A stretch of 64,000 nucleotides of DNA, from the NCBI RefSeq assembly GCF_028561275.1, contig NZ_JAQQTF010000004.1, positions 310,001 through 374,000 of the forward strand, read 5' to 3'. Positions 13,571 through 27,529 of this stretch are shown here, in pieces (position 1 is the stretch's first letter; every line of letters begins with the position of its first letter). The notes under the pieces are model-generated. The model was not told the DNA's origin and did no database searches. It saw only the letters and a program-made list of their open reading frames with translations. This DNA is from Aureisphaera galaxeae. GTDB lineage: Bacteria > Bacteroidota > Bacteroidia > Flavobacteriales > Flavobacteriaceae. The translations under genes and the position numbers were made by a program.

Positions 13571-13591
13571 CTACGCAAATAGATTGCGTAG
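13571..13591. promoter_or_regulatory. Perfect 8-bp inverted repeat upstream of the tRNA-linked gene
   Basis: CTACGCAA (13571-13578) and TTGCGTAG (13584-13591) are separated by five bases. The element sits just upstream of a TAATCTTG sequence (13600-13607) that differs by one base from the Bacteroidota -7 consensus TAnnTTTG, and 43 bases ahead of the 457-residue gene. No T run follows, so an operator is more likely than a terminator. Confidence 0.5.
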
Positions 13592-13634: not shown

Positions 13635-15008
13635 ATGACCGACTTTGCAGCATTATACAAAAGTTTGCAGGAACGAAAAAGACCTGAAGATGTAGCCGAA
13701 ATGATTCTCGAGGTATTGAGTGGTCAACTATCCAACTCTGAAAGGAGAATTTTGGAACGAGCAGCTAAGGGTTCCCTAAAGCGTTACGTATTTGGGTATA
13801 CGTCTATGTTGCAGGAATTCTCAAGGGCAGTTGGTGCTAATAAGCAAATAAACAAGGCCATCGAAATTTTCGAATTGGAATCTGTTGAGAATATCAATGG
13901 AAACCACGCACCCGACATAGAGAACTTTTTAAGGAAAGTTTCTCCGCTTATTCATAAGGAATATGGTCGAAACAACTTTGTTGCCGATCGTTTAAATAAG
14001 TATGAGCGGGAGGCCAAAGGAATGGATATTTCCAAAAGGAATTACAACAAAAAATGGCGGCTTATTAAGCGTTTGGAAAACAAACTTCTTAAGTTTCAAC
14101 GGGAACAAAAGAAAGTTGAATTTCAAATGATCGCTAAGCACGGTATTGTACACCGCTTGGATTTTGAAGAATTCAAAAAAGACAAGAACACTGCTTGTTT
14201 TATAGCGTACTTTAATGCGAGATGTAACCTAAGAAGTGTATTCACGAATAAGAGTCAGGCTAGGGCCTATGATGAGATCAGTGATATGTTATTCAAAAGA
14301 TGCCAACGACAAGATGCTTCTTTCTTAAAGAAGATGAGAGGTAAAAGGAGTGGAGTTGCTGAAGGAAAAACCAATTGGTTCGCCATATCCCATATCTATA
14401 CTTCTAAGGAGGTATTAGATCACTTAAGTGAAGTTCAGAAGGGCTGGCTTTTGGGAAAATGGACGACTATTCTTCAGGAAATTGCCGAATTGTTGGGTGA
14501 GGTTTGGAGCAGTAGTTCTATGAATCGCGCTACCATGATCGTTAGACGAGGTAACGATTCCACTACCTGGAACAACACCGCCGGTGCTTGGAATAAAGCA
14601 AGGGATCATTGGATGAATCTTATCTATGCCATGGGTATGGATTTTATTCTCGACGATTTGTGTTTTGGAAAAGTGATGCGATTAATGGCGGCAGATGTAG
14701 CTTCCTGGCACCATTTCTCGGGTGGAGGTTTAGATCCAAACACAGCGGTTTGGAATGATTTACCATTACCTTGGGAAGTGTTTAAAGGACAAGCTACATG
14801 TAATAAGCAGATGGTCATTGCCAGCTGTCGAAAAGTGAGCTTGGATCCCGAAAAGTCGGGCTGGATAGCCCCACGAACACATGGTGTAGAGAAATTTACG
14901 CCAACACCAGAGTTGGTGCATGGCGTACAAGTGGCTAATGCGTATTTGGCCACCGTATTGAAGAAGCATAAATTTTACTCCGGTAAAAAAGCTAAAATAT
15001 ATACGTAG
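13635..15008 (+). CDS. Unrecognised 457-residue protein linked to two tRNA-like genes
   Basis: I recognise no family. The protein has no signal peptide or membrane segment. Its N-terminal half is helical and strongly basic (ISKRNYNKKWRLIKRLENK, about residues 132-150). The C-terminal half is Trp/His-rich: WKARDH-like WNKARDHWMNLIYAMGMD near 317-334 and ADVASWHHFSGGGLDPNTAV near 354-373, followed by a Lys-rich tail. Basic regions fit RNA binding. Its stop is only 11 bases before the first tRNA-like gene, so protein and RNAs are probably cotranscribed. A resemblance in arrangement to Ro60/Y-RNA loci is only organisational: I see no TROVE or vWA motifs. Confidence 0.75.
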   Translation: MTDFAALYKSLQERKRPEDVAEMILEVLSGQLSNSERRILERAAKGSLKRYVFGYTSMLQEFSRAVGANKQINKAIEIFELESVENINGNHAPDIENFLRKVSPLIHKEYGRNNFVADRLNKYEREAKGMDISKRNYNKKWRLIKRLENKLLKFQREQKKVEFQMIAKHGIVHRLDFEEFKKDKNTACFIAYFNARCNLRSVFTNKSQARAYDEISDMLFKRCQRQDASFLKKMRGKRSGVAEGKTNWFAISHIYTSKEVLDHLSEVQKGWLLGKWTTILQEIAELLGEVWSSSSMNRATMIVRRGNDSTTWNNTAGAWNKARDHWMNLIYAMGMDFILDDLCFGKVMRLMAADVASWHHFSGGGLDPNTAVWNDLPLPWEVFKGQATCNKQMVIASCRKVSLDPEKSGWIAPRTHGVEKFTPTPELVHGVQVANAYLATVLKKHKFYSGKKAKIYT

Positions 15009-15019
15009 TATTAAGCAAG

Positions 15020-15091
15020 GATGGGTTAATTCAGTGGTAGAATACCCGGCTCTTACCCGGGCAGACGCAGGTTCGAGCCCTGCACCCATCT
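15020..15091 (+). tRNA. tRNA-like gene, anticodon CTT (nominal Lys), Gly-like body with U73
   Basis: A full cloverleaf can be drawn: 7-bp acceptor GATGGGT/ACCCATC, D stem ATTC/GAAT with loop AGTGGTA, anticodon stem CCCGG/CCGGG with loop CTCTTAC (anticodon CTT at 15052-15054), five-base variable region, T stem GCAGG/CCTGC with loop TTCGAGC. All stems pair perfectly, and U8, A14, G15-C48, G18G19, A21, U54U55C56 and A58 are present. Oddities are A10 instead of G10, U73 discriminator (seen in bacterial tRNA-Gly, not tRNA-Lys), and no encoded CCA. Charging identity is uncertain. Confidence 0.85.
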
Positions 15092-15094
15092 AAT

Positions 15095-15167
15095 TCTGAT
15101 ATAGCTCAGCGGTAGAGCGCCCGGCTCCGGTTCCGGGAGGACGTAGGTTCGAGCCCTGCTATCAGAA
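15095..15167 (+). tRNA. tRNA-like gene with 8-nt anticodon loop (nominal Arg CCG)
   Basis: Acceptor TCTGATA/TATCAGA, D stem GCTC/GAGC with loop AGCGGTA, anticodon stem CCCGG/CCGGG, T stem GTAGG/CCTGC with loop TTCGAGC; discriminator A167 followed by CCT, so CCA is not encoded. The anticodon loop is CTCCGGTT (15125-15132), eight bases instead of seven, giving anticodon CCG or a four-base CCGG. Tertiary-structure positions (U8, A14, G15-C48, GG, A21, UUC, A58) are kept, but base 20 is U rather than the A20 typical of tRNA-Arg. It starts three bases after the first tRNA-like gene. Confidence 0.82.
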
Positions 15168-15180
15168 CCTTTTTGAAAGC

Positions 15181-15209
15181 AGGGGTTATTTCCATTGGAG
15201 GTAACCCCT
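15181..15209. other. Perfect 8-bp hairpin after the tRNA-like pair
   Basis: AGGGGTTA (15181-15188) pairs with TAACCCCT (15202-15209) around a 13-base loop that itself holds TCC/GGA. It begins 13 bases after the second tRNA-like gene. There is no T run on either side, so it is not a normal intrinsic terminator; it may mark the 3' end of the tRNA-like transcript or act as a processing or protein-binding structure. Confidence 0.5.
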
Positions 15210-15314
15210 TAAAAACCCAAGGCAAAATACGGGCATAATCTGGAGGTTATAACTATGTTTAAAATGCTGATTATCAGTTAATTTTGATTTAACAAACATT
15301 TAAAATTAATAGTT

Positions 15315-15569
15315 ATGCCACATTATGCTCAAGGGACCACAGGTTGGACCAAATTAAGCGGGTACCAAGCCCTTTGGGACCCAAAAATTGACCTAGGTAA
15401 ATTTTACTTCACCACATTTCAGGGGAAACGAGAAGAAACCCCTTATATGACATCCGAAAACTTTGCCCGCGTTATCGATATTCTAAGAAATGAAACACCT
15501 GTATATGGTAATGCCAGTACAGGATCGGTAACGACGCAAGGAGAAGCCGTAGGGGAAGAAGAAAGTTAA
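15315..15569 (+). CDS. 84-residue orphan protein downstream of the tRNA-like genes
   Basis: 84 residues from ATG 15315 to a TAA followed by a strong terminator. The sequence starts MPHYAQGTTGWTKLSGYQAL, has an aromatic core (KFYFTTFQGKREE), and a Gly/Thr/Glu-rich tail ending GEEES. No signal peptide or membrane segment. I recognise no family. Its place after the 457-residue protein and two tRNA-like RNAs, and a terminator immediately after it, suggest it belongs to that locus or has its own promoter in the AT-rich 15212-15314 stretch. Confidence 0.65.
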   Translation: MPHYAQGTTGWTKLSGYQALWDPKIDLGKFYFTTFQGKREETPYMTSENFARVIDILRNETPVYGNASTGSVTTQGEAVGEEES

Positions 15570-15596
15570 TTGACAACCCTTTTACAAAGGAATGAG

Positions 15597-15622
15597 GGCA
15601 TGCTTTAAGGCGTGCCTTTTTT
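15597..15622 (+). terminator. Intrinsic terminator of the tRNA-like locus
   Basis: GGCATGC (15597-15603) pairs with GCGTGCC (15610-15616) including one G-T pair, six-base loop, followed by TTTTTT (15617-15622). It lies 28 bases after the 84-residue gene and closes the locus. Confidence 0.85.
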
Positions 15623-27258: not shown

Positions 27259-27311
27259 AAATAGGAGTTTTTATTTGGTGCTACCGTATACGCGCCTTAT
27301 TTTCGCGTCGA

Positions 27312-27500
27312 ATTTTGGTGAGGGTTTTCCTCCACAGGAAAACTTTCTTAAAAGGGAATTTGGTGCAAATCCAAAGCTGTTCCCGCAACTGTAAGCCGTC
27401 CGTCATGGATAGTGTACAACTTCAACACCACTGTTCTTAGGAAGAATGGGAAGGTATACACAAGAGGCGAGCCAGGAGACCTGCCAGTTTTCACATTTTG
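27312..27500 (+). promoter_or_regulatory. Cobalamin riboswitch
   Basis: The stretch contains the conserved core elements in order: AAAGGGAATTTGGTGCAAAT (about 27352-27370), CCGCAACTGTAAG (about 27383-27395), and the B12 box GCCAGGAGACCTGCC (27471-27485). These mark an adenosylcobalamin-type riboswitch on the plus strand, upstream of the TonB-dependent receptor. Ends are approximate. Confidence 0.93.
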
Positions 27501-27529
27501 TCAAACTTTCGGGATAAAGGTTTGGGAAC

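Follow-up and report, generated by a model that had tools for sequence, protein, structure and literature searches.

We analyzed a window of 64,000 nucleotides (nt) from Aureisphaera galaxeae (contig NZ_JAQQTF010000004.1, positions 310,001 to 374,000, forward strand; "the window" denotes this whole stretch), in which a gene for a basic 457-residue protein is followed, after a gap of 10 bases, by two transfer RNA (tRNA)-like RNAs. The protein and the RNAs are, to near certainty, a two-component unit in which a single protein from a new family is accompanied by one to four tRNA-like RNAs, and the two components are kept and lost together. The whole unit spans ~1.6 kb in the window, and the protein gene is single-copy in its own genome.

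The elements listed in the initial annotation are real; that is, the open reading frame (ORF), the two RNAs, the hairpins and the inverted repeat were all recovered (Table 1). ARAGORN identified RNA 1 as tRNA-Lys(CTT) and RNA 2 as a tRNA with a four-base anticodon in an 8-nt loop; its label for such genes can be just "tRNA-???". In the covariance-model check that had been proposed, both RNAs scored above the gathering score of Rfam RF00005 (65.3 and 60.1 vs 29 bits), and both fall inside the range of the 51 RF00005 matches in their own genome (33–76 bits). Both had been called non-standard: each bears the family signature described below, but only RNA 2 has an enlarged anticodon loop, as that of RNA 1 has 7 nt. 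Folding energy by itself says little about the two RNAs (z scores of −1.9 and −0.2), and the evidence beyond chance comes from the tRNA model and from the co-occurrence tests.

Table 1. Coordinates of the unit and of the features around it in the window.
Feature	Position	Strand	Remarks
ORF, 457-residue basic protein	13635..15008	+	ORF call; isoelectric point ~9.6
tRNA-like RNA 1	15019..15092	+	base −1 = 15019; signature GGCTC 15048–15052; 7-nt anticodon loop CTCTTAC 15050–15056
tRNA-like RNA 2	15095..15169	+	signature GGCTC 15123–15127; 8-nt anticodon loop CTCCGGTT 15125–15132
Inverted repeat 5' of the 457-residue gene	13571..13591	+	8-bp stem; z −2.1
Hairpin 3' of RNA 2	15181..15209	+	−19.3 kcal/mol; z −3.3; no long T-run behind
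84-residue ORF	15315–15569		
Hairpin preceding terminator-like site	15594–15619		z −3.1

Linkage of the protein gene and the signature tRNAs

The signature was derived from the first loci and consists of GG at the end of the anticodon stem, a loop starting with CUC, three to six further bases and then CCR; the variable loop usually ends with GAC. In addition, the scan accepted only hits in which the anticodon stem and the T stem each formed 4 or 5 of 5 pairs. Signature tRNAs were present at 76 of 79 protein-carrying loci, where several of the 79 are repeat fetches of a locus already included and the 76 positive loci amount to 59 distinct tRNA sets. Two of the three misses are loci whose genes are cut by the contig end (L072 and L127); the third is a Miltoncostaea plasmid (L089), in which a degenerate tRNA-like stretch, judged by eye, lies upstream of the gene.

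The arrangement was assessed in 46 loci, namely the window and 27 bacterial, 14 viral and 4 plasmid loci (L071, L072, L079, L089, L091, L092, L127 and the copies L093–L120 stand outside this set). The nearest signature tRNA lay within 105 nt of the gene in all 46 loci, downstream in 39 and upstream in 7, and all 85 tRNAs were on the strand of the gene. ORF and tRNA overlapped by 1–21 nt in 12 of the 46 loci. At four loci (L121 7353–7362, L122 7368–7377, L123 7380–7389 and L056 7338–7347), the stop codon of the gene coincides with U8-A9-G10 of the tRNA; therefore, tRNA processing would strip the stop codon from the message, and self-regulation by this route is possible. The natural inference is that gene and tRNA share one transcript and that production of the tRNA would cut the message.

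As the signature had been taken from linked loci, we searched for it on its own. Among 173 genomes of the Chryseobacterium genus, it was found in 31, all of which belong to the 35 genomes with a protein match, and in none of the 138 genomes without one. Of the four protein matches lacking the signature, three are remnants (31–54 residues) and the fourth is a gene located at the end of a contig. One of the 31 genomes (G580) has two signature tRNAs ~4.5 kb from a 38-residue gene remnant, and at one Chryseobacterium site a deletion in a relative had removed most of the gene plus both tRNAs. Across 395 Bacteroidota genomes, including that of A. galaxeae, the signature occurred in exactly the two that encode the protein and in 0 of the 393 others. 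In a viral collection of 2.9 million contigs, a stricter gapped signature identified 8 contigs, all among the 15 that encode the protein; this pattern misses 7 of those 15, and it was used in place of a still stricter, ungapped DNA pattern that matched no viral contig.

The relaxed signature was also compared with ordinary tRNAs. In the viral loci, 74 distinct tRNAs were called, and 49 of them lacked even the relaxed signature. The 25 that carried it comprise 23 that flank the protein gene plus one Gln and one Met tRNA from other places in the arrays. In the A. galaxeae genome, it was found on both special tRNAs and on one ordinary tRNA-Met of 50. Independence from the protein gene was thus not seen for signature tRNAs in the Chryseobacterium, Bacteroidota and viral sets; in G580, just a gene remnant is left. 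The earlier proposal that protein and RNAs form one unit is borne out far beyond the window by linkage in both directions: the homologs come with a tRNA-like gene (46 of 46 and, in the wider scan, 76 of 79 loci), and the RNAs are not ordinary tRNAs that also occur unlinked (0 of 138 Chryseobacterium-genus and 0 of 393 Bacteroidota genomes without the protein).

RNA frame, anticodon-like segment and protein family

The RNAs combine a constant frame with a changing anticodon-like segment. The anticodon loop has 8 nt in 69 of 96 distinct sequences, 9 in 11, 6 in 1 and the ordinary 7 in just 15, including RNA 1 of the window; the CUC at the loop start is part of the search pattern. Across 56 tRNAs drawn from 30 diverse loci, each position of the acceptor stem is paired in 53–56 cases, via several pair types, and the positions used in tRNA tertiary contacts are retained (A58 in 56, G18G19 in 55, C48 in 54, A14 and TTC in 53 each and U8 in 52). 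A pairing between GGCUC and GAGCC of the T-loop was considered and dropped, because GAGCC is absent from the T-loops of Streptomyces and of some viral loci.

Positions −1 and 73 can pair in 46 of the 56 diverse special tRNAs (41 Watson–Crick pairs, i.e., AT, GC, TA and CG, and 5 G-U pairs), which suggests an 8-bp acceptor stem; this is only suggestive, because 46 of 93 ordinary tRNAs from the A. galaxeae genome and the viral loci can pair there as well. Base 73 itself is variable in the special tRNAs (C 38, A 22, T 20 and G 14 of 94). One of the 97 viral flanking ORFs has a match to tRNA-His guanylyltransferase (Thg1), which installs base −1; we mention it in view of position −1:73. In addition, two loci (L063 and L104) have a single chimeric special tRNA with the 5' side of tRNA 1, the 3' side of tRNA 2 and mismatched acceptor strands, as would be left by a deletion between the T-arms of the two.

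We compared the bases after CUC with 94 ordinary tRNAs from the A. galaxeae genome, the viral arrays and L047. Among 24 distinct 8-nt loops, 13 have as their first four bases after CUC the same bases as an ordinary tRNA at positions 34–37, whereas the shuffles average 4.3 and 0 of 5000 reached 13; all five bases match in 5 of 24 (reached by 10 of 5000). For the 9-nt loops, 6 of 10 agree in the register after CUCU (13 of 5000 shuffles) and 5 of 10 in that after CUC (104 of 5000); the register is not settled, because both beat the shuffles. The 7-nt loops equal ordinary positions 34–38 in 4 of 8 cases. CUC is followed by UUC, UUU or UUG in 36 of the 44 distinct 8-nt sequences from bacteria, to which Chryseobacterium contributes many. 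Where position 37 would be, a pyrimidine is present in 11 of the 24 distinct 8-nt loops and in 4 of the 10 loops with 9 nt, vs 3 of 94 ordinary tRNAs. The segment is also exchanged: 4 of 17 tRNA-2 bodies carry two to four different segments, one of them TTGGA, TTCTT, TTCAC and TGGA, and one tRNA-2 body can bear anticodons of different amino acids.

The 457-residue protein matched no family in Pfam (E up to 10), NCBIfam or PADLOC; its best match had E 0.11 in PHROGs and E 0.25 by sequence or 0.77 by fold in PDB, none of which is convincing. Judged by these comparisons, it is a member of a new family. A scan of genome contigs yielded 29 loci with relatives at 51–65% identity, in genera that include Chryseobacterium, Sphingobacterium, Kordia, Aquimarina, Fluviicola, Taibaiella and Paraflavitalea. 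Plasmid-borne relatives were found in Hymenobacter (51%), five Streptomyces (42–44%) and Miltoncostaea (31%). Viral contigs of IMG/VR contributed 15 loci with relatives at 32–51% identity, four of which sit on contigs of 241–436 kb (two further partial relatives were left out), and INPHARED/GenBank phage records held no relative detectable by tblastn with three family members. Among the viral flanking ORFs, two have matches to a family of phage head maturation proteases, and one has a match to a virion protein. No third partner emerged from the flanks: among the 25 families listed per Pfam or PHROG scan, none had more than 4 members in the bacterial set (121 of 162 ORFs) or more than 2 in the viral set (97 of 132 ORFs).

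An AlphaFold2 model built on 43 sequences is nearly all helical, with a predicted local distance difference test (pLDDT) of 88.8 and a predicted template modeling score (pTM) of 0.88; it supersedes an earlier model from 28 sequences (pLDDT 75.6). A fold search against predicted viral proteins gave two clear matches, both uncharacterized, in Edafosvirus (E 1.1e-14, TM score 0.64) and Yasminevirus (E 8.8e-13, TM score 0.66), two giant viruses. Yasminevirus reportedly has 70 tRNAs, most of them in clusters (PMC11946776).

Two peptidyl-tRNA hydrolase genes, a gene from an RNA ligase family and thrS lie within 10 kb of the Miltoncostaea relative (L089), and a thrS gene also lies ~10 kb from a Streptomyces relative (L090). 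On a 330-kb viral contig (L122 9715–10325), a transfer-messenger RNA match is followed by a group I intron match, with 19 tRNAs called in the 13-kb locus. In Aquimarina (L045 4873–5518), two group II intron matches lie ~0.5–1.1 kb upstream of the relative's gene.

Possible role of the unit

The unit looks like a new protein–RNA system of bacteria, plasmids and virus-like DNA. A close analogy is with Ro60/Rsr proteins of the TROVE family, which have a dedicated Y RNA that in part mimics tRNA. In both cases a protein would be paired with a dedicated tRNA-mimicking RNA, binding being presumed here; however, the RNA here forms a complete cloverleaf of tRNA size, and its anticodon loop varies. No TROVE domain was matched by Pfam in the 457-residue protein (E up to 10) or in nine relatives, and neither the PDB sequence matches nor the best 50 of 106 fold matches included a Ro60-type entry. 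Some jumbo phages have been noted to carry TROVE proteins, which in cellular organisms have a partner that is tRNA-like (PMC7824862).

We tentatively favor a dedicated ribonucleoprotein that displays exchangeable anticodon mimics, perhaps as a decoy for, or a sensor of, enzymes that cut anticodons. The RNAs share an invariant frame made up of the tRNA elbow, a GG-CUC in the 5' half of the anticodon arm and, often, a paired −1:73. The protein would bind this frame through the elbow and GGCUC, hold the RNA apart from ordinary translation and thereby put the exchangeable anticodon mimic on display. The likeliest use would be in conflict over tRNAs. In phages, such a decoy may spare the translation pool; in bacteria and on plasmids, it may guard against incoming tRNases or act as a tripwire; and the changing anticodon would follow a changing enemy. 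A decoy or sensor is best supported because a partner that recognizes anticodons is the simplest reason to display and swap real-looking ones. The setting on plasmids and viral contigs, some with adjoining phage head genes, is supportive. Slightly more doubtful is the wider notion of interchangeable anticodon cartridges, in which one family, shared by bacteria and phages and, judging from the predicted fold, also by giant viruses, would swap a CUC-capped anticodon on a constant body. In this view, the protein may even cut out C or CU, which would amount to a tRNA insert of one or two bases.

Several points weigh against a displayed decoy. Exchange was rare in tRNA 1, in which just 1 of 37 bodies has more than one segment. 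The shuffle test behind the 13 of 24 matches counts related loops as independent, and its reference consists of 62 pentamers. Loop variability could reflect relaxed constraint; plain drift is nevertheless disfavored, because multi-base changes occur on identical bodies. The 7-nt loops that match ordinary positions 34–38 suit translation too, and special and ordinary tRNAs differ at −1:73 by degree rather than absolutely. Moreover, at the 14 loci covered, which have 121 flanking ORFs, the bacterial cassettes are not in evident defense islands; each of the best 25 of 30 PADLOC families matched a single flanking ORF, although candidate defense genes among these ORFs include PDC-S02, mad2 and PD_DExK. 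Finally, we know of no decoy protein of such design.

Phage tRNAs offer the nearest parallels to the proposed conflict. They evade anticodon nucleases via loop mutations, and an arms race has been proposed (van den Berg et al. 2023, PMC10264068). Altered anticodon loops and tRNA-cutting enzymes as the proposed opponent are common to both cases, and an anticodon-like segment is present here, but the loop length differs; the accessible text of that paper describes no partner protein and does not use the term "insertion". Phage tRNAs that evade retrons and further defenses (PMC11555353) likewise represent tRNA genes as counter-defense, but no partner protein is described in the accessible text. 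The accessible texts of PMC10264068 and PMC7824862 contain no such protein, CUC signature or reciprocal linkage. Within the open-licence PMC literature, the scope of our search, none of the matches listed describes the protein–RNA pair. As for established anti-phage defense systems, no PADLOC model matches the 457-residue protein.

The RNAs might instead be working tRNAs in masked form, with the protein modifying or trimming the loop, e.g., by removing C or CU after U33. This would yield normal or recoded tRNAs that stay hidden from anticodon nucleases until they mature. We regard this as rather unlikely, although much is compatible with it. Removing C from 8-nt loops gives ordinary-looking loops more often than in shuffles, the 9-nt register after CUCU fits slightly more loops than that after CUC (6 vs 5 of 10, not settled), 4 of 8 7-nt loops match ordinary positions 34–38 and the tertiary positions are retained in 52–56 of 56. 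The special tRNAs also sit amid ordinary tRNAs in viral arrays, and the structural relative in Yasminevirus belongs to a carrier of 70 tRNAs (PMC11946776). However, a pyrimidine takes the place of position 37 in 11 of 24 distinct 8-nt loops (vs 3 of 94 ordinary tRNAs), a given tRNA-2 body can carry anticodons for more than one amino acid, and base 73 varies and often pairs with −1. Furthermore, C removal would break 7-nt loops with C34, and no solved enzyme fold was matched below E 0.77. The pure insertion model, in which dropping C or CU restores a normal tRNA, was kept as a rival and not adopted as our preferred explanation.

Other tRNAs with enlarged loops were compared as well. Suppressor tRNAs of +1 frameshifts, SufB2 among them, share the extra anticodon-loop nucleotide (PMC7803779), but they are variants of ordinary tRNAs, whereas the RNAs here are linked to a protein and have extra bases after U33, numbering 0–2 in most. 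Yeast mitochondrial tRNA-Thr has a natural 8-nt anticodon loop (PMC7609411), but it is a translating tRNA of mitochondria for which the accessible text gives no linked protein. With the ordinary tRNA set, the special RNAs share the cloverleaf, but neither a general 7-nt loop nor independence from the protein.

A codon-specific blocker is unlikely. Here, the complex would enter the A site at matching codons and halt or divert translation, for host takeover or abortive infection. Real-looking anticodons that vary on a constant body and intact elbow positions would fit such a role; against this, no elongation or rescue factor was found among the best 50 of 106 fold matches, and loops of 6–9 nt should read codons poorly.

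Still less probable is a pair resembling type III toxin–antitoxin systems, in which the protein would be a toxin kept inactive by the tRNA-like RNA. The antitoxin RNA of type III systems consists of short repeats upstream of the toxin gene; in contrast, the RNA here is tRNA-like, and the nearest one lies downstream in 39 of 46 loci and upstream in 7. A protein with an adjacent RNA and no third partner, the plasmid and viral settings, the scattered distribution and the joint decay all agree with a toxin–antitoxin pair. However, an antitoxin role leaves the variable anticodon unexplained, and Pfam, PADLOC and the PDB fold search (best 50 of 106 matches) gave no toxin family or fold. The G580 RNAs, kept with just a gene remnant, are what a dead toxin would leave, yet they are uninformative.

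Coincidence, i.e., a conserved hypothetical gene beside tRNA integration sites with decaying tRNA copies, can practically be dismissed: tRNA genes are common integration sites, but the family signature, the compensated stem variation and the two-way co-occurrence with the protein speak against it.

The "tRNA-???" genes turn out to be half of a conserved protein–RNA pair, which opens a defined route to the function of non-translational tRNAs and possibly to a new arm of the phage–bacteria conflict over tRNA cleavage. The protein, which has no known fold, is now worth solving. The unit should be directly testable because it is small (~1.6 kb) and present in named Chryseobacterium and Sphingobacterium strains.

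Neighboring features of the window

The 84-residue protein had been suggested as a partner or substrate of the unit, a role that we reject because its gene is conserved at 90–93% identity in four other genomes of the family, at loci that lack the unit. It was found at 93% identity in 1 of 8 other genomes of the genus, which lacks the 457-residue protein, and 3 of 298 further genomes from the family carry it at 90–93%. The four loci (3.2 kb each) contain no signature tRNA and no relative of the 457-residue protein, and their DNA past the gene is unlike the window (in one case, dissimilar only past a 100-nt leader). The 84-residue protein belongs to no family in Pfam, NCBIfam, PHROGs or PADLOC. 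It is encoded by a separate, sparse and strikingly conserved gene that is unlinked to the protein–RNA unit. By eye, the sequence 3' of the special tRNAs differs among distant loci.

The hairpin 3' of RNA 2 is possibly the 3' end of the transcript. A strong terminator had been described behind the 84-residue gene; a hairpin is indeed there (z −3.1), but the terminator scan alone is no evidence, because it found 3 terminator-like sites vs 2.2 in shuffles. Neighboring genes with Pfam matches are ordinary (OmpA, GNAT, 2OG oxygenase, AsnC/Lrp, TspO and cyclase), and a cobalamin riboswitch (Rfam RF00174, 100 bits) lies at 27298–27502 of the window. Elsewhere in the A. galaxeae genome (G000), there are two dense tRNA arrays, at C12:611308–612424 (L032, 11 ARAGORN calls) and C17:521858–522603 (L033, 5 calls); some of their calls are low-scoring, and their isotypes are also represented at other sites of the genome, as is seen for arrays on mobile elements.

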